The translations under genes were made by a program, and so were the position numbers. A stretch of 57,733 nt of DNA, taken from NCBI GenBank assembly GCA_001512965.1, contig LFRW01000018.1, positions 1 through 57,733 of the forward strand. Reading direction: 5' to 3'. A model generated the notes under the pieces. It made no database searches. It saw only the letters and a program-made list of their open reading frames with translations, and was not told the origin of the DNA. The stretch comes from Methanomicrobia archaeon DTU008. GTDB lineage: Archaea; Thermoplasmatota; Thermoplasmata; Methanomassiliicoccales; Methanomassiliicoccaceae. Of the stretch, positions 2,532-51,664 are shown one piece after another; positions within the stretch are counted from its first letter, which is position 1, and each line of letters opens with the position of its first letter.

Positions 2532-3119
2532 ATGGAGAAGAGGTTGGACAAGGTGTTCCGCGAGAGGCTCATCCGGGACGAGAGCTTCGGCGAGCTCAGA
2601 CCGCATTCCTTGCTGGTGGAGGTGGTGTCAGGAGGTCTGGTTCCCCGGGGGAGGGCCCTCAATCTTCACTGCGGCATGGGAAGCGACAGCCTGTACCTCG
2701 CCCAGGAGGGGTTCGTGGTGGCTGCGGCCAGCTTCACCCCCGGCGAGGTCGAAGGGGTCAAGAGGCTGGCCGAAGAGGCGAAGGCCAAGGTGTCCACCTT
2801 CACCGTGGAACCGACGAACCTGCCGTTCCATGAAGGGGAGTTCGATTTCATCGCAGACACCGGGTGCATTCTGAAGGTGGATGAGGGGGAGAGGGGCATC
2901 TTGCTGCGAGAGCTATACCGCACGCTCAGGAGAGGAGGGCGGATGTTCACCATGCTACCCAATTACAAGGACAGTCCCGATGGGGTCACTCGTGCGTCCA
3001 TAGAGGAGATGTTCCACCCGCCGTTCGAGGTCCTGGTGGTGAACGAGAGCACCGTGGCAGATGAGGGCGGCAAGGCGGATGCCGTGTACTATTACTCCGT
3101 CCTTCTGGAAAAGGTCTGA
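2532..3119 (+). CDS. SAM-dependent methyltransferase (class I)
   Basis: The product has 195 residues. LNLHCGMGSDSLYLAQEG is the glycine-rich SAM-binding loop (motif I), followed by an acidic segment FDFIADTGCILKV and a motif-III-like LRRGGRMFTMLPNY. The open frame extends further upstream, but a TATA element at 2501-2508 (ttttatct) sits 27 bases before ATG 2532. That ATG is therefore the expected leaderless start, and the upstream reading has no family features. The substrate is unknown. The stop meets the end of the convergent OB/HD gene at 3120. Confidence 0.8.
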   Translation: MEKRLDKVFRERLIRDESFGELRPHSLLVEVVSGGLVPRGRALNLHCGMGSDSLYLAQEGFVVAAASFTPGEVEGVKRLAEEAKAKVSTFTVEPTNLPFHEGEFDFIADTGCILKVDEGERGILLRELYRTLRRGGRMFTMLPNYKDSPDGVTRASIEEMFHPPFEVLVVNESTVADEGGKADAVYYYSVLLEKV

Positions 3120-4097
3120 TCATAGCCTGAAGACCTTGGTTCGCAGATATGGGTCCATGGTGAAGAGGTCATCGGGGCCGCCGTTCCGCCTTGCCCTTAT
3201 GAACCTCTCCAGATTAGCGTCCAGCTCATCGGCGTGGTTCAATGCCACCGCCTCCGGTATCGATGGCTTGACCGGGGAGCCCTTCTCCAGCTCGCCGTGA
3301 CTTGCCAGCACCATGTGGATGAGCTTAAGTCGCAGATTGTCCGGGAAGTCCGGGAGGGAGTCGCAAGCCCGGCCGACCATGGAGGAGCCGATGGCAAGAT
3401 GTCCGATCAGTCGTGAATCGGGCGACTCGACTATCGTGCTGCCCACATCATAGCAGTCGATCTTGCCGATATCGTGCAGGATGGCCCCTGCCAGGAGAAG
3501 GTCGCGGTCAAGGTCGGGATACAGACGGGATATGGCGTCGCAGGTCCTCACGACGTTCAGGGTATGCTCCAGAAGACCTCCTATCCACCCGCAATGATAG
3601 GAAACCGATGCAGGGGATCGCCTGAGCTGGCTTGAGACATCCTCATCGTTCAGGATGGTGAGCAGGACCGATCGTATGTTGGCGTCCTCGATGCTTTCCA
3701 CATACTCCATCATGGCAGAGTACATCTCACCTACATCCCTGGCGGTGCAGGGCAGGAAATCCTCCGGGTCGCAGTGCTCGTCCCCGGCCGGCTCGGCGGT
3801 GCCGCCGTTCCTGGGATTGATGTTGATCATCAACTGTCCGTTCCAACGGCCGGTCATGCCCACCAATCGTACGATGGAGCCGACCTGGAGAGCCTCATAC
3901 GCTCTCCGGACCGATGCCTCATCATCGTCGCCCCAATACGTGGCCATGATCTCCCCGGTGACATCGGCCACCTTCATGCGGAACTTGTACCCACGCCTGT
4001 ATTGGGAAGGGGCCTCCTTCCATCGCAGGGCGTACAATTCGTCGATCTCCTTGTTCTCGTCCTCAAGGTCCTCGATGAACAGACGTCCCGCCTTCAT
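3120..4097 (-). CDS. OB-fold plus HD-domain phosphohydrolase, YhaM-like 3'-5' exoribonuclease family
   Basis: The product has 325 residues. Residues about 10-95 form an OB fold of the nucleic-acid-binding type (YKFRMKVADVTGEIMATYWG, then VGSIVRLVGMTGRWNGQLMI). Residues about 165-290 form an HD domain: HCGWIGGLLEHTLNVV, then HDIGK, and VLASHGELEKGSPVKPSIPEA. This architecture and length match YhaM/CBF1-type 3'-5' exonucleases that degrade RNA or ssDNA with a metal in the HD site. It starts at ATG 4097 and stands alone as a single gene. The activity is inferred from the family. Confidence 0.82.
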   Translation of the reverse strand: MKAGRLFIEDLEDENKEIDELYALRWKEAPSQYRRGYKFRMKVADVTGEIMATYWGDDDEASVRRAYEALQVGSIVRLVGMTGRWNGQLMININPRNGGTAEPAGDEHCDPEDFLPCTARDVGEMYSAMMEYVESIEDANIRSVLLTILNDEDVSSQLRRSPASVSYHCGWIGGLLEHTLNVVRTCDAISRLYPDLDRDLLLAGAILHDIGKIDCYDVGSTIVESPDSRLIGHLAIGSSMVGRACDSLPDFPDNLRLKLIHMVLASHGELEKGSPVKPSIPEAVALNHADELDANLERFIRARRNGGPDDLFTMDPYLRTKVFRL

Positions 4098-13967: not shown

Positions 13968-16900
13968 TCACAGGCGGCTTAGGTCCCTTGTAGCTCCACC
14001 TTCTTCCTTGTCAGGCTGTTCGAGAAGTTCGCGGATCTTGTCCAGTTTGTCCTTCTCCTCCTTTTCTTGAGGGACGATCTCTTCAGGGACGGGTTCTTCC
14101 ATCGCGGTTCCCTCAGCCGGTGCGGGTGGCTGATATGCCAGGGCCGCCGCGACCAGGGAACTGGCGCCCCTTCTCTTGGGCGTCGAGGCAGACCGTTCGG
14201 CCTGGCGCTGCCGAGGAGCGGCCGGCTCCGCGGCCGAAGAGGATTGGAAGGTCTGGATGGTGGGTTCGACGGGACGGTCCGACTTCATGACCTTCTCGGC
14301 GATCTTTATCGCCCGCTCGGCCATGGCGTCGCGAGATGTAGGCCCATGCCCCGCCTTCGACTTGGATGTCAAGCCCTGCGCCTCCGCCATGCGCCTCTGT
14401 GCCCATCTCTTCTGGATTGCCAGGCGCTGGGCCTCGGTCTCGATCACGTCCGAATCGTCGACCGGCTCGATCGACCCATCGACGAAGTTCAAAGGCGTGT
14501 GGCATCGAGGGCATTCCAGCACCTTGGTGCACTCCATGCAGAACAAGGTTCCGCAGTTGGGGCACACCGTCACGGCCGGCTCACCGTGGAAGATGCAATT
14601 ACGTCTGTTGTATCTGTCCGTGTTCGGGTAATACTTCACGGTAATGGCTTTGGAGCGGTCCGCCTTTGGCGGATCCGCCTCGGCCTTCCTTCTGTTTCGG
14701 AAAAGTCTCATCTCCTCAGTCTCCCTCAGGTTTGGCGGGGCCCATGCCGTTCCCTCCATGGACGCATCCGCGACCGGAGCGTTCGCCTCTACGGACGGTT
14801 GCGCCCTCGCGCGGGCCATGGGGGGAGATCTGTCGACGGAAACGACAGGTGCCTCGATGGCATCCATCATGCTGACCAGACGGCGGGCGGTGTATATCCC
14901 GATGTTCAGATTCTCCATCAGCCCCAGGGTGGAACGGCTCCCTGCCGGCAATGACATGGCCTCCCGGAGGAGCTTTTCCGTACGCTTGTCCGGCGTCTCC
15001 TCCGGAAAGTCCATGGCGTTGACCGCCTGTATGTATGCAAGGACCTTCTTGGCCTTCTGCACATCACGGTCTGGCATGCACATGTACGTCTCGGCGAGAC
15101 GCAGCCCTTGCCTGGTATAATTGGGGTTCCCAAGAGTGGCCAAGAGCACATCCCTGGACAGTTCCTCATAGGCCTGGAACTGATCATCGTCCAGGGAGTC
15201 GATGTCCACTGTCTCTCTGGATTGCAGGTACTCGGTCACGGCGTCGATGTAGGCGAACGGTAACCCGCATTCCTTGAAGGCTTCCTCCCTCGTCACCCTG
15301 CGATTCTGCCTGTACTCGAACTCGAGAACCTTGGCCGCATAGATGCTGACGTCCCTTTCCTTGAGCTTCTGCATGAGCACTGCCATGCTTTCCTGTGCCG
15401 AAGGGAGGGAGGGGTCGATCTCCAGGGCCCGGTCCAGCGCCCTCTTTGCCTGGTCGAGCTTGTCCATCCGCATGAGGATGCGTCCCTTGCCGCTCCATGC
15501 GAACTTGTCCTGCGGCTCATTGGCCAATACGGTGTCGAAGCAGCGAAGCGCCTCCTCGTCCTCGCCAAGCTTCTCCAGCAGGGCGGCCTGGTTCAGCCAG
15601 GCGCGGTTATTGGTGCTGTCGAGACCTATGGACCGCTCCAGCGAGCGGACCGCCTCCTCCACCTTGCCCAGCTTGGCCTGCACGATGCCGATGCGCATCC
15701 ACAGGATAGGGTCGTCGCCTTCGATCTCGGCGGCGCGGACATATGAGTCGTATGCATCATCCAGGCGCCCGAGGTCCTCTTCCGCCCGGCCTTTCGAGCG
15801 CAGAAGGGTGGCGGTGACGGCACCCAGCTCGATGGCCTTGGCGTAGCAGTTGACCGCCTTGGCCTTATCGCCTTCCTTGAAATGGACGTTGCCCTTGTAC
15901 TTCCACACCTCTCCATTCTGGGGGTCCAGCTCTATCGCCTTGTCAAGGGCCTTCATGGCTTCACCATATCGTCCCTGAGTGGCCAGTGCCCGTCCCCTGT
16001 CCATATGGAAGGAGGCGTTGGAAGGGTCCGCCTTGACGGCCTGGTCGAAAGCGGCCAATGCGCCGGCGGGATCTTTTCCCATGAGCAGGGCTCGGCCCTT
16101 GTTGTCCAACATGATGAGGTCACTGGGGTCGAGATTCCATCCCTGATCGAAGACCTGCGCCGCACGAGAGTACTGCTCCAGTTGCATTAGGGTCAGTCCT
16201 AGGCGGTTCATCACCGAGCGGTCCGAGGGATCCACCCTCAGGGCATATTGGTACTCGGCGGCGGCATCGTCCAATCTGCCTATGGATGAGAGGGCGTCAC
16301 CTCGGTCGACATGTGCGCTCTTGCTGAGCGGATCTATCTGCAGCAGCACGTCGCATATGGCGATGATGCCTTCGTGATCGCCTTTGGCGATCAGGGCGTC
16401 CTTCTTGCGCTCCAGCACCTCGACGTCACGCGGTTCGTCATCCAGCATGCTATCGTACGCCCGGATGGCGTCATCATTGCGCCCGACCTCGCGCAATGCC
16501 GCGGCCTTCTCCATCACGGCTCCCTTGTTCCGCGGGTCCTGCCGTAGGATCTGATCGGCCACGGCGATGACTTCCTCGTGCTTCGCCAGGCCTTTCAGGG
16601 CATACATCTTCGATTCCAGGACGTCCATGTCCTTCGGGTTCAAGGCCAACGCATGATCGAAGGCGGAGACCGCCTCCGAGTATAGACCGATCCGAAGGAG
16701 GGCCTTTCCCCTCTGAACATGCGCATAGTGGTTCTGGGGGTCAAGACGGACGACCTGTTCGAACGCCTCGATCGCCAGGCTGTAGCGTTCGAGCATCATC
16801 AAGGCCGCACCCTTGCTGGTCCAGATGTTGAAGTCGTTGGGGTCGAGCTTCAAGGCCTGATCGTACGATACCACGGCCTCCTCCGGGCGGCCGTCGGAGA

Positions 16901-18686
16901 ACAGCGCGAGCCCGCGGGACCACCATAGCAGCCGGTTCGCAGGATCGAGGGATATCGCCCTTGCAAGCGCCTCAGCGGCCTCGGCGAACCTGCCCATGGC
17001 GTAGAGCGAATCGCCCTTTATCCTCCAGAACTCAGGCTCCTGAGGGAACAACTGGGTGCCGGATATGGCTCGGTTGAGGGAATCCTCGTACCTCTCCTGC
17101 GAATACAGGGCCAGGGTAAGGTTGCGGAACGCATCCTGGTTCGCTGGCTCCATCCGGAGCACGTCCTGAAAGACCTTCACGGCCTCCTCCTTTCGACCCA
17201 GGCGATTTAGCGCCACGCCCATGTCCACCATGGCCACCGCGTTGCTGGGGTCTAGATCGAGGATCTTCTCCGTGATGGCCAGGACATCGCGGTCCTTCTC
17301 TAGCCCCTTGTACGACTCGTTGATGGCGATGAGAACGGCGAGCCTGTCACCGTGGATCTTGAGCGCTCGTTCCAGCACCTTCAGGCCCTCTTGGAATCGC
17401 ATCGCCTTGTTGTAGGCCACGCCCAGTGCGTACATGGTCTCGCCATCGTTGGGGCGCTGTTCCAGCAATGCCTCGCACTCTTTGACCGTGTCGTCCATGA
17501 GGCCCAGTGCGATGGTGGCATCTCGGCGCATGGACATCAGGTCGGATTCCCTGGGAAATCTGCTGAGCGCAACGGCGACAGCGTCCATCGCATCCCTTGG
17601 CTTACCCGCCTTCAGCAAGCATGAGACATGCGCCTTATATGCGGGGAGCTCCGGTTCGATGCTGATCACGACCTTGGCGGCATCGGCCGCTTCGGACCAC
17701 TTCGACATCGCGCTGAGGACGCGCAGATGACCCTCCGCCGCGGTCAGGTCCTTGGGGTCCAGCGATACTGCTTGCTCATAGACCTTTGCCGCCTCTTCTA
17801 GACGGTCCAATGATTCCAGGACCGCACCTACCTCTAGCCAGGTCTCCTTCCGTTCGACGTCCGCTCGAAGCGCTTCCTTGTAATATTTCACCGATCGCTC
17901 GGTCTGACCGCTTCCCCGCAACACCCTTGCCTTCCCAAGATTGGCATCGTAGGACGCGGGATCCATCTCCAAGGCAGAATCGTAGACGGCCGATGCATCC
18001 TCCCAGCGCTCCGCCTCGAGCATGATGCGGCCCTTGACAAGAAGAGCATCGAGGTTGCGATATCCCTTGGCGATGATCTCATCGAGCGCCGTGACCGCCT
18101 CATCGAATCGCTTGGTCTGCAAGAACAGCTCGGCCTTGCGCAGGGTCCAGTGATATGGGTCGTCCTTCTCGATGAGCTTCTCGATCACGTCTATGTCCGA
18201 CGGGTCGATGCTCTCCGCCCTCTTCAGCGACTGAACGGCGTCGGACGTCCGTCCGCTCTTCTCCAGAACCGCCGCCCTTCTAAGATGGAGGGATTTCTCT
18301 AGGGGACGTAGCTCGATGGCGCCATCCAGCAATGCAAGGGCGTCGGACAGGTCGCCCTTCTCTGACAGGGCGTCCGCCCGAGCGGCCATGGCCGGCGGAT
18401 AACGGTCCTGCAGCTCCAGCGCCCGGTCCGCTGCCCGTATGGCCTCGTCGATGTTGCCGACCTTGAGCTGCACCATGCTGAGAAGGGTCAGGGCATCGGC
18501 GAAATCGCGTGAGTGGGGGCTTAGCCTCTGTAGATCGGCGAACAGGATGTCCTTGACCCTGTCCAGATCCTCATCGACATCTTGTCCAGACCCTTTGGCC
18601 AGCCGCAGGTCGACGCTCTCCAAGATACGTCTGGCCTTGTAAAGGCCTCTGAGCTCCCTATCGCGAAGCGATTCTAGAAATCCCAT
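13968..18686 (-). CDS. Giant TPR-repeat protein with C-terminal zinc-binding domain
   Basis: The product has about 1572 residues from ATG 18686. Residues about 60-1130 are some 30 tandem 34-residue TPR units (for example DEAIRAADRALELQDRYPPA and EEAVVSYDQALKLDPNDFN), a superhelical protein-binding scaffold. A helical linker follows, then a cysteine-rich domain, CIFHGEPAVTVCPNCGTLFC and CTKVLECPRCHTPL, resembling a B-box or zinc ribbon. The tail is low-complexity, rich in Pro/Ala and acidic residues. No enzyme domain or signal peptide is seen. The open frame reaches 18764, but ATG 18686 begins the conserved-looking helix. Its leader carries the start-codon hairpin described separately. Partners are unknown. 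Confidence 0.85.
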   Translation of the reverse strand: MGFLESLRDRELRGLYKARRILESVDLRLAKGSGQDVDEDLDRVKDILFADLQRLSPHSRDFADALTLLSMVQLKVGNIDEAIRAADRALELQDRYPPAMAARADALSEKGDLSDALALLDGAIELRPLEKSLHLRRAAVLEKSGRTSDAVQSLKRAESIDPSDIDVIEKLIEKDDPYHWTLRKAELFLQTKRFDEAVTALDEIIAKGYRNLDALLVKGRIMLEAERWEDASAVYDSALEMDPASYDANLGKARVLRGSGQTERSVKYYKEALRADVERKETWLEVGAVLESLDRLEEAAKVYEQAVSLDPKDLTAAEGHLRVLSAMSKWSEAADAAKVVISIEPELPAYKAHVSCLLKAGKPRDAMDAVAVALSRFPRESDLMSMRRDATIALGLMDDTVKECEALLEQRPNDGETMYALGVAYNKAMRFQEGLKVLERALKIHGDRLAVLIAINESYKGLEKDRDVLAITEKILDLDPSNAVAMVDMGVALNRLGRKEEAVKVFQDVLRMEPANQDAFRNLTLALYSQERYEDSLNRAISGTQLFPQEPEFWRIKGDSLYAMGRFAEAAEALARAISLDPANRLLWWSRGLALFSDGRPEEAVVSYDQALKLDPNDFNIWTSKGAALMMLERYSLAIEAFEQVVRLDPQNHYAHVQRGKALLRIGLYSEAVSAFDHALALNPKDMDVLESKMYALKGLAKHEEVIAVADQILRQDPRNKGAVMEKAAALREVGRNDDAIRAYDSMLDDEPRDVEVLERKKDALIAKGDHEGIIAICDVLLQIDPLSKSAHVDRGDALSSIGRLDDAAAEYQYALRVDPSDRSVMNRLGLTLMQLEQYSRAAQVFDQGWNLDPSDLIMLDNKGRALLMGKDPAGALAAFDQAVKADPSNASFHMDRGRALATQGRYGEAMKALDKAIELDPQNGEVWKYKGNVHFKEGDKAKAVNCYAKAIELGAVTATLLRSKGRAEEDLGRLDDAYDSYVRAAEIEGDDPILWMRIGIVQAKLGKVEEAVRSLERSIGLDSTNNRAWLNQAALLEKLGEDEEALRCFDTVLANEPQDKFAWSGKGRILMRMDKLDQAKRALDRALEIDPSLPSAQESMAVLMQKLKERDVSIYAAKVLEFEYRQNRRVTREEAFKECGLPFAYIDAVTEYLQSRETVDIDSLDDDQFQAYEELSRDVLLATLGNPNYTRQGLRLAETYMCMPDRDVQKAKKVLAYIQAVNAMDFPEETPDKRTEKLLREAMSLPAGSRSTLGLMENLNIGIYTARRLVSMMDAIEAPVVSVDRSPPMARARAQPSVEANAPVADASMEGTAWAPPNLRETEEMRLFRNRRKAEADPPKADRSKAITVKYYPNTDRYNRRNCIFHGEPAVTVCPNCGTLFCMECTKVLECPRCHTPLNFVDGSIEPVDDSDVIETEAQRLAIQKRWAQRRMAEAQGLTSKSKAGHGPTSRDAMAERAIKIAEKVMKSDRPVEPTIQTFQSSSAAEPAAPRQRQAERSASTPKRRGASSLVAAALAYQPPAPAEGTAMEEPVPEEIVPQEKEEKDKLDKIRELLEQPDKEEGGATRDLSRL

Positions 18687-18705
18687 CCCATCACCAGGAT
18701 GGGAG
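18681..18705 (-). promoter_or_regulatory. Start-codon hairpin in the TPR mRNA leader
   Basis: Read on the minus strand, UCCCAUCC (18704-18697) is perfectly complementary to GGAUGGGA (18688-18681), which contains the AUG at 18686. The 8-bp stem closes an 8-base loop. A competing partner exists: the + strand word AGGATGGGAG, present in two hairpin loops at 18969-18978 and 19026-19035, pairs with CUCCCAUCCU (18705-18696) over 10 bases. The pairings are seen in the sequence; a regulatory role is inferred. Confidence 0.5.
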
Positions 18706-18768: not shown

Positions 18769-18779
18769 TGTCGGACAAT
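18769..18779 (+). promoter_or_regulatory. RHH-type operator candidate next to a TATA element
   Basis: TGTCGGACAAT here is identical over 11 bases to 51400-51410, upstream of the ribbon-helix-helix regulator gene. It abuts the + strand TATA element aatataaagg (18777-18786). The position at a core promoter fits transcription factor binding. Confidence 0.4.
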
Positions 18780-18850
18780 ATAAAGGAAGAGCGGGGAAAA
18801 GTATCACTGGCACCCCTCCATTTCGGTGCCTTGCACCCTTGACAGAAGTT

Positions 18851-18858
18851 ATTAAATA
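18851..18858 (+). promoter_or_regulatory. TATA element for the divergent hairpin RNA
   Basis: The element attaaata is preceded by purine-rich agaag, which fits a BRE. Transcription would begin near 18880, at the palindrome 18883-18900. No credible ORF follows. Confidence 0.5.
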
Positions 18859-18879: not shown

Positions 18880-19060
18880 TCCGTCCGACATAGGTCGGAC
18901 AAAACGTCTTGGATGGGATGCAATCTTTTCCGGCTGCGAACGCTGGAATGTGAACGTGGACGGGCGCTAGGATGGGAGCGCCAGGAACGAACACATTCCG
19001 ACGGGCGAAGCCGTGGAGGGGGCATAGGATGGGAGTGCCCCCTCGCCCCCCTTATATTCT
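18880..19060 (+). ncRNA. Candidate structured small RNA with repeated AGGAUGGGAG loops
   Basis: There is no convincing ORF, but a TATA element lies at 18851 and several compact hairpins follow. They are 18883-18900 (7 bp), 18928-18948 (TTCCGGC/GCTGGAA), 18963-18982 (GGCGCT/AGCGCC) and 19016-19044 (GAGGGGGCA/TGCCCCCTC, 9 bp). The last two have different stems but the same loop word TAGGATGGGAG. A further GGATGGGA is at 18911. Loops displaying one conserved word on unrelated stems are typical of RNAs that pair with a target or bind a protein. The loop word is complementary to the leader of the divergent TPR mRNA. T-rich sequence near 19070-19080 could end the transcript. Expression is not shown. 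Confidence 0.45.
18883..18900. promoter_or_regulatory. Palindrome GTCCGAC-ATAG-GTCGGAC at the expected transcription start
   Basis: This is a perfect 7+4+7 inverted repeat sitting about 27 bases after the TATA element at 18851. It can be a double-stranded operator or the first hairpin of the RNA. Its half-sites match those in the RHH promoter at 51371-51410. Confidence 0.5.
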
Positions 19061-19115
19061 CGCTATACTGTTTCATCTTTCTCGATTCCTCGATGGGACT
19101 GGCAGGTCAATAACG

Positions 19116-19148: not shown

Positions 19149-19221
19149 GCAGGTGTGATCTAGTTGGTTAGGATTTCAGCCTTCCAAGCTGACTGCCCGG
19201 GTTCGAATCCCGGCACCTGCA
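19149..19221 (+). tRNA. tRNA-Gly (anticodon TCC)
   Basis: The acceptor arms GCAGGTG/CACCTGC pair fully. The anticodon stem is TCAGC/GCTGA with loop CTTCCAA, so the anticodon is TCC. The T arm is CCCGG-GTTCGAAT-CCCGG-like with the expected TTCGAAT. The discriminator is A and CCA is not encoded. A TTTT tract follows. Confidence 0.95.
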
Positions 19222-19284
19222 CTCACTTTTCTCATATGCTCATTGGCGTCATCGAACGGCATGTCACCATGCTGACATGAAATG

Positions 19285-28189: not shown

Positions 28190-28314
28190 TGGTGTGACGG
28201 CCATAGCGGCGGGGATACACCCGGTCCCATCCGAACCCGGAAGTTAAGCCCGCCCGCGTTTCGTGCTGTACTGCGGTGCGCGAGCCCGCGGGAACCACGA
28301 GACGCTGTCAGCCA
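28190..28314 (+). rRNA. 5S ribosomal RNA, unlinked from 16S/23S
   Basis: Conserved 5S blocks are visible: GGCCATAGCGGCGGGG, the loop CCATCCGAACCCGGAAGTTAAG and GTACTGCGGTGCGCGAG. The ends are set from the usual spacing around these blocks and may be off by a few bases. Protein genes lie on both sides and no other rRNA is in the window, an arrangement known in Thermoplasmata. Confidence 0.92.
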
Positions 28315-37710: not shown

Positions 37711-37788
37711 GGGTCTGTGGGGTAGCTTGGTCCATCCTTGGGGCTTTGGGAGCCTTAGACCCCGATTCAAATTCGGGCAGACCCACCA
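37711..37788 (+). tRNA. tRNA-Pro (anticodon TGG), CCA encoded
   Basis: The acceptor stem is GGGTCTG/CAGACCC. The anticodon stem GGGGC/GCCTT (two G-U pairs) holds loop TTTGGGA, giving anticodon TGG. The T arm is CCCGA-TTCAAAT-TCGGG. The discriminator A is followed by an encoded CCA, unlike tRNA-Gly in this window. Confidence 0.94.
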
Positions 37789-51118: not shown

Positions 51119-51358
51119 CTACTTTTTCAAGTATTCTTCCTGAAAGATTTCCATGGCGGCGAGTGTTTTCTCGGCTTCCTCCATCTTCTTTACCTTGTCC
51201 ATGACGACGTCGACCCGCTCATAGATGAAATCCCGGATCGCTGCCCTGATGGCCTCAGAGCGGGACGGGAAGTCATCCACTTTGACAAGGAAGTCCAAAG
51301 CTCTGATGTATCGCTCTGGAAGGCGAATTGTGACCTTCTCTAGCTCCGGTCCCTCCAT
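51119..51358 (-). CDS. Ribbon-helix-helix (CopG/Arc-type) transcriptional regulator
   Basis: The product has 79 residues from ATG 51358. LEKVTIRLPERYIRALDFLV is the ribbon strand and helix A; DDFPSRSEAIRAAIRDFIYE is the turn and helix B with the conserved SRSEAIR. A charged helix follows. It is similar in shape to short archaeal RHH regulators such as CdrS. It lies downstream of a palindromic site cluster (51371-51410) that it probably binds for self-regulation. Matching sites at 18769 and 18883 suggest a second target. The TATA element is near 51420-51434. Confidence 0.85.
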   Translation of the reverse strand: MEGPELEKVTIRLPERYIRALDFLVKVDDFPSRSEAIRAAIRDFIYERVDVVMDKVKKMEEAEKTLAAMEIFQEEYLKK

Positions 51359-51550: not shown

Positions 51551-51664
51551 CCCGCCTTAGCTCAGTCTGGCTAGAGCGGCTGACTGTAGTGGGTTACCGG
51601 TCTTTTCCGGTTCTCAGCCGCTGATATCAGCAGGCCCCCGGTTCAAATCCGGGAGGTGGGACCA
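51551..51664 (+). tRNA. tRNA-Tyr (anticodon GTA) with a 36-base intron, CCA encoded
   Basis: The acceptor stem is CCCGCCT/AGGTGGG (one G-U). The D arm is GCTC...GAGC and the anticodon stem GCTGA/TCAGC. The anticodon GTA is at 51586-51588. The intron is placed after position 37 at 51590-51625 and contains hairpin ACCGG-TCTTTT-CCGGT. The T arm is CCCGG-TTCAAAT-CCGGG; discriminator A and CCA are at 51661-51664. Exact splice points could shift by a base or two. Confidence 0.92.

Follow-up and report, generated by a model that had tools for sequence, protein, structure and literature searches.

To our knowledge, archaeal small RNAs with a known role are few, and post-transcriptional control of the archaeal cell cycle is almost unexplored. 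sRNA154 and the other nitrogen sRNAs of Methanosarcina are archaeal regulatory RNAs with functional loops. The RNA described here resembles sRNA154 by description only, as the two belong to different regulons and have no known shared sequence. Closer in design are the decoy RNAs of the CsrB type, which carry several exposed copies of one short word that is also found, often at the ribosome site, in the leaders of the mRNAs under control (PMC7652899). Closer in setting is Haloferax, in which CdrS binds ahead of ftsZ1 and also ahead of HVO_1885s, an RNA with no assigned function, and in which repression of cdrS-ftsZ2 lowers ftsZ1, ftsZ2, sepF and smc (PMC8406309).

As in CsrB, CsrC and RsmZ, the locus presents a GGA-containing word in multiple loops or single strands, here two conserved loops and one leader copy, and the word is also found in the leaders of regulon mRNAs (here smc). 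Moreover, the selected CsrA site RUACARGGAUGU resembles loops of the locus such as CACAGGAUGGGGUG. The design differs in that GGAUGGG is held in a loop of 8-9 nt on long stems, the preference of CsrA being for short stems with hexaloops, and in that the RNA is archaeal, mRNA-derived, limited to 2-3 sites and without a match in Rfam, where no family reached the gathering score and the best hit was a spurious microRNA (E 0.24). CsrA (PF02599) was absent from 15/15 family genomes, in which the controls matched, and this rules it out as the partner; the RNA is therefore no CsrB, though it may work like one. With HVO_1885s of Haloferax volcanii it shares the character of a noncoding RNA within a cell-division regulon that includes ftsZ1 (PMC8406309), a likeness of regulon setting, in which the link to a CdrS-like protein is putative on our side. 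The two also differ in that the CdrS motif lies upstream of the promoter of HVO_1885s, as for activation, whereas the operator here coincides with the expected start site or immediately follows it. A search of the open literature returned no description of this RNA.

A fixed loop word on covarying stems

The window, by which we mean the whole analysed stretch of 57,733 nt, contains AGGATGGGAG at 18969-18978 and 19026-19035, each time as the loop of a stem, and a third, shorter copy, GATGGGA, at 18912. An earlier note on this DNA had placed the word in these two loops and, as GGATGGGA, at 18911, and had described two different stems carrying it; both the positions and the stems proved exact (Table 1). 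In total, three exact copies of AGGATGGGAG occur in the window, compared with 0.31 expected, and none of the shuffles reached three. The additional exact copy (18696-18705, + strand), which the earlier note had not mentioned, falls where the divergent TPR gene begins and shows no conservation among relatives.

Table 1. Features of the locus and its neighbours (window coordinates).
Feature	Coordinates	Strand	Basis or remark
Divergent TPR-repeat gene, start region reads GGTGATGGGATGGGATTT	13968..18686	-	conserved neighbour
TATA box TATTAAATA	18850..18858	+	in 11/11 aligned relatives; near-constant distance to operator
Operator GTCCGACATAGGTCGGAC (GTCNGAC-N4-GTCNGAC)	18883..18900	.	at or just past expected start site
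First word copy, leader element GATGGGATGCAA, unpaired or weakly paired	18912..18923	+	conservation in relatives
Outer stem GGAATGTG/CACATTCC around hairpin 2	18945..18999	+	fold, this genome only
Hairpin 2: GGCGCT, loop AGGATGGG, AGCGCC	18963..18982	+	pair counts, 11 genomes
Hairpin 3: GAGGGGGCAT, loop AGGATGGGA, GTGCCCCCTC	19016..19044	+	pair counts, 12 distinct rows
C-rich, then T-containing tail, probable RNA 3' end	19045..19060	+	C-run, then T-rich stretch conserved in relatives
tRNA-Gly(TCC)	19149..19222	+	downstream neighbour in most relatives

The 191-nt stretch folds with -83.9 kcal/mol (z = -3.9), and 0/200 shuffles were equally stable. Because the register of hairpin 2 moves by one base between genomes, pairs were counted on stems registered by hand. 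Of the innermost pairs of hairpin 2, 65/66 were kept across 11 genomes, each position showing two to five types of pair, and hairpin 3 kept 116/120 pairs across 12 distinct rows; registration from the closing pair outward favours pairing inside each genome but does not favour covariation across genomes. When the 3' arms were dealt anew among the genomes in 20,000 trials, no permutation matched the observed pairing of either hairpin (0/20,000 each), and the best permuted counts were 58 for hairpin 2 and 110 for hairpin 3. The stem of hairpin 2 reads GGCGCT/AGCGCC here, GGTGCC/GGCGCC in G003, ATCAAATCCT/AGGGTTTGAT in G004, CAGCTGTT/AACAGCTG in G014 and CTTCTT/AAGAAG in G007, while its loop word is invariant in the 11 genomes and GGATGGG is always enclosed. 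The test proposed in the earlier note, that stems should covary around a fixed loop word, was accordingly passed across four genera of the family. As an independent check, 933 distinct GATGGG contexts from all DNA examined were scored, and 14 had a stem score of at least 10: twelve were hairpins of this locus in two families, one was the locus L199 and one was unrelated.

An accidental fold of GC-rich DNA in which a word happens to recur could draw on the frequency of that word in coding DNA: GGATGGGAG has 40 copies in this genome, compared with 11 of the reversed word, mostly within reading frames. Covariation and orthology refute this explanation, which is almost certainly wrong. Since GGATGGGAG is common inside coding sequence, the word alone lacks specificity, and no target list was taken from its matches because they lie mostly within reading frames. 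Matches of the pattern AGGATGGG-GTGC across the order were mostly unplaced and were set aside, and pattern matches in bacteria (L190, L196, L215) were chance matches in coding sequence.

Operator, regulon and shared leader word

The TATA element that the earlier note had claimed ahead of the region is present and conserved in relatives, and its position implies a putative transcription start near 18880. Fixed in all relatives are the TATA box, a spacing of about 24 nt and then GTCNGAC-N4-GTCNGAC, the halves of which are each palindromic and lie 11 bp apart. We considered an RNA hairpin at the position of this element and rejected it in favour of a DNA operator, because the halves are palindromic, their centre letters do not covary (G010 and G012, for example, have GTCGGAC..GTCGGAC) and the site recurs at other promoters. 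Family genomes hold 1-5 copies of the pattern, and the reversed-pattern control gave 0 in the family. No description of this operator was found in the open literature. The word itself is unlikely to be a second DNA site, as its distance to the operator varies from 3 to 22 nt and two of its copies sit on covarying hairpins.

By DNA search, the locus was found in 12/12 family genomes that are at least 90% complete, and no clear copy was found in three incomplete ones (67-80%); the comparison genomes are mostly metagenome assemblies. In the relatives it always lies opposite the start of the same TPR gene, the promoter region of which has a single GTCNGAC half-site (18771-18777 in the window), and usually before tRNA-Gly. 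Elsewhere in the window, the two tRNA predictions disagree: a tRNA at 51551-51661 is called by Rfam alone, and a tRNA-Pro at 37711-37788 by ARAGORN alone; an intron or a false call is possible.

Further operator sites in this genome precede smc (C37) and the gene of a 303-residue membrane protein (C7) that belongs to no Pfam family. Most genomes of the genus g4 have the operator about 156 bp before ftsZ; the ftsZ of this genome has none. The pattern GTCNGAC-N4-GTCNGAC thus marks a small regulon across the order, consisting of smc, the membrane protein, this RNA and, in g4, ftsZ, and it is found at smc in other Thermoplasmata as well. Because the RNA has the same operator as chromosome-segregation genes, this structured noncoding RNA probably helps to tune cell division. 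A candidate for the protein that reads the operator is encoded in this genome on G000:C30, directly upstream of another ftsZ gene (2686-3624). It contains an RHH_1 match (2358-2471, L258) and joins two RHH units in a single chain, and GTCCGAC and GTCGGAC, 22 bp apart, lie ahead of its gene. This double-RHH protein is likely a CdrS homologue, and, judged only by gene content and sites, a CdrS-like protein would bind GTCNGAC-N4-GTCNGAC. A second RHH_1 protein is encoded in the window at 51224-51334 (-), with GTCCGAC sites either immediately ahead of its frame or inside the beginning of it.

The regulon also shares a leader word. The first word copy is invariant as GATGGGATGCA in 11/11 relatives and is part of a leader element, GGGATGGGATGC, that is common to smc mRNAs across Thermoplasmata, where it follows the operator by 4-10 nt in Methanomassiliicoccales and in other Thermoplasmata. 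Many smc leaders further contain a CCUCC..GGAGG hairpin that adjoins the smc start and is able to hide the ribosome site (for example at 1521-1597 of L002), which suggests translational control. In several genomes GGGATGGGAGTGC is found at the start codon of the membrane-protein gene, and GGTGATGGGATGGGA stands at the start of the TPR gene; these two matches are partly explained by the start codon and the ribosome site. The leaders of ftsZ share only the shorter GGGATGC.

Descent from a small-protein gene

The locus is protein-coding in the families f2, f3, f4 and f6: the product has about 58-80 residues and the core WMKxHT..DL, and the word lies just before or at its start codon. A profile search found this protein in 32/147 genomes of the order at E <=0.01, about 27 of them strong. 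The family (L039, L040, L108, L112, L115, L126-L143) is uncharacterised, has no Pfam match and stands under the same operator. Tandem leader words are carried by several f6 genera, and the f6 mRNAs of L126, L127, L130, L131, L135 and L143 have two, CTTAGGGATGGGATGC, before the start codon.

In two g4 genomes the frame survives at 67 codons, its end lying within hairpin 2, whereas that of G011 and G006 looks decayed. It is gone in g1 (this genome), g3, G010 and G012, where words and hairpins persist. On this comparison of frames, the locus is the descendant of a protein-coding gene, and the RNA a remnant of the small-protein mRNA. The earlier statement that no ORF fits holds in substance, but not to the letter: a mechanical ORF of 66 codons (18913-19113) spans both hairpins and is cut short in relatives. 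It is very unlikely that this frame, starting at ATGGGATGC, is an unannotated small gene that still makes a short peptide in this genus. Here the frame is open for 66 codons, and in G003 and G004 it is open along part of the RNA, but it stops after about 10 codons in G001 and about 23 in G005, its products are dissimilar beyond the shared leader, it crosses both hairpins, and a search of this genus with the ancestral-protein profile gave no match.

The ancestry also raises the question of whether the elements act in cis only, with the hairpins serving a short mRNA as 3'-end or stability elements and the leader word as a ribosome-binding or start-region element, in the absence of any action in trans. 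A plausible frame in g4, g24 and g29 has its stop codon at the hairpins or before them, the f6 leader word stands a few nucleotides before the start codon, and a T-containing stretch follows hairpin 3. In the second family, f6, hairpin 3 with the loop AGGATGGG is found in the genera g24 and g29 after an intact frame (the carriers of this 3' hairpin are L129, L141 and L142). Against a purely cis-acting remnant, at least g1, g3 and two g4 genomes have lost the frame, as has L199 of f6, which has kept a leader word and a 3' hairpin with the loop AGATGGG; words and hairpins are strongly constrained; and a terminator needs no fixed loop, while hairpin 2 is not at the end. We consider this explanation unlikely.

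A candidate decoy for a reader of GGAUGGG

In this genome the locus is predicted to produce a noncoding RNA of about 175-185 nt (from about 18880 to 19060, + strand) that would display (A)GGAUGGG(A) three times, once in the 5' leader and twice on the covarying hairpins. In other species the expected length differs, within roughly 180-380 nt. It descends from the mRNA of the 58-80-residue protein, the frame having decayed and the words having stayed, and would be transcribed under the operator common to smc and other cell-division genes. Its loops may bind a factor that recognises this word in the 5' leaders of the regulon, in all likelihood an RNA-binding protein, and capture of this factor would change the translation of smc and other regulon genes when the regulon is on. 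We tentatively propose, at slightly less than an even chance, that the RNA is a decoy that competes for the reader of GGAUGGG in smc and related leaders. The word itself, and not its complement, is common to the RNA and the smc leaders, which favours competition over antisense pairing, and its recurrence in loops whose stems are unrelated suits a protein reader of single-stranded RNA, which makes the decoy the leading reading. Having only three sites, far fewer than CsrB, speaks against it, as do the frequency of GGATGGGAG in coding sequence and the ftsZ leader, which has only the shorter GGGATGC and, in this genome, no operator. Hairpin 3, moreover, could be a mere terminator whose loop has a separate role. 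The smc leader element, the regulon operator and the descent from a small-protein mRNA go beyond the earlier note, which had suggested a titrating or pairing RNA; with fixed loops on covarying stems this is still the best class of explanation, within which we infer the function itself, including protein binding to the word, titration and the direction of the effect.

A fixed loop on a variable stem would equally suit a seed, and the RNA might instead be a base-pairing regulator whose loops, GGAUGGGA, pair with UCCCAUC-type sites in mRNAs or a stable RNA while the stems present the seed. Loop C of the 5S rRNA here contains an 8-nt complement of the word (UCCCAUCC), and in some smc leaders outside the order GCAUCCC immediately precedes the ribosome site. 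The regulon leaders, however, share the word and not its complement, inspection of the smc leaders of this order revealed no conserved complement, and a match of 8 nt in 5S or of 7-8 nt at the 16S locus can be chance. Base pairing is an improbable explanation, and neither of these rRNA complements was judged significant. Since the word is invariant, covariation cannot reveal its partner. In the 5S rRNA gene of the window, UCCCAUCC in loop C (28225-28232) is the exact complement of GGAUGGGA, and in some g2 and g4 relatives the first word copy matches the 5S complement over about 11 nt, which may be chance. A 23S gene was not found in this assembly.

Returning to the decoy, a broader version of it is conceivable, though rather doubtful: Thermoplasmata may possess a Csr-like post-transcriptional system in which a different RNA-binding protein reads GGAUGGG in the leaders of segregation and division genes. 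The RNA, having retained nothing but the binding words of a decayed small-protein mRNA, would be the decoy of this protein and couple it to the cell cycle.

One short word links a structured RNA to smc leaders across a class of archaea, beside a shared operator. With the shared word, the operator and a likely CdrS homologue at hand, both layers of control are testable. Beyond regulation, the locus shows an mRNA that lost its protein, apparently more than once, and kept its RNA words, which is a clear case of the birth of a noncoding RNA from a coding one.
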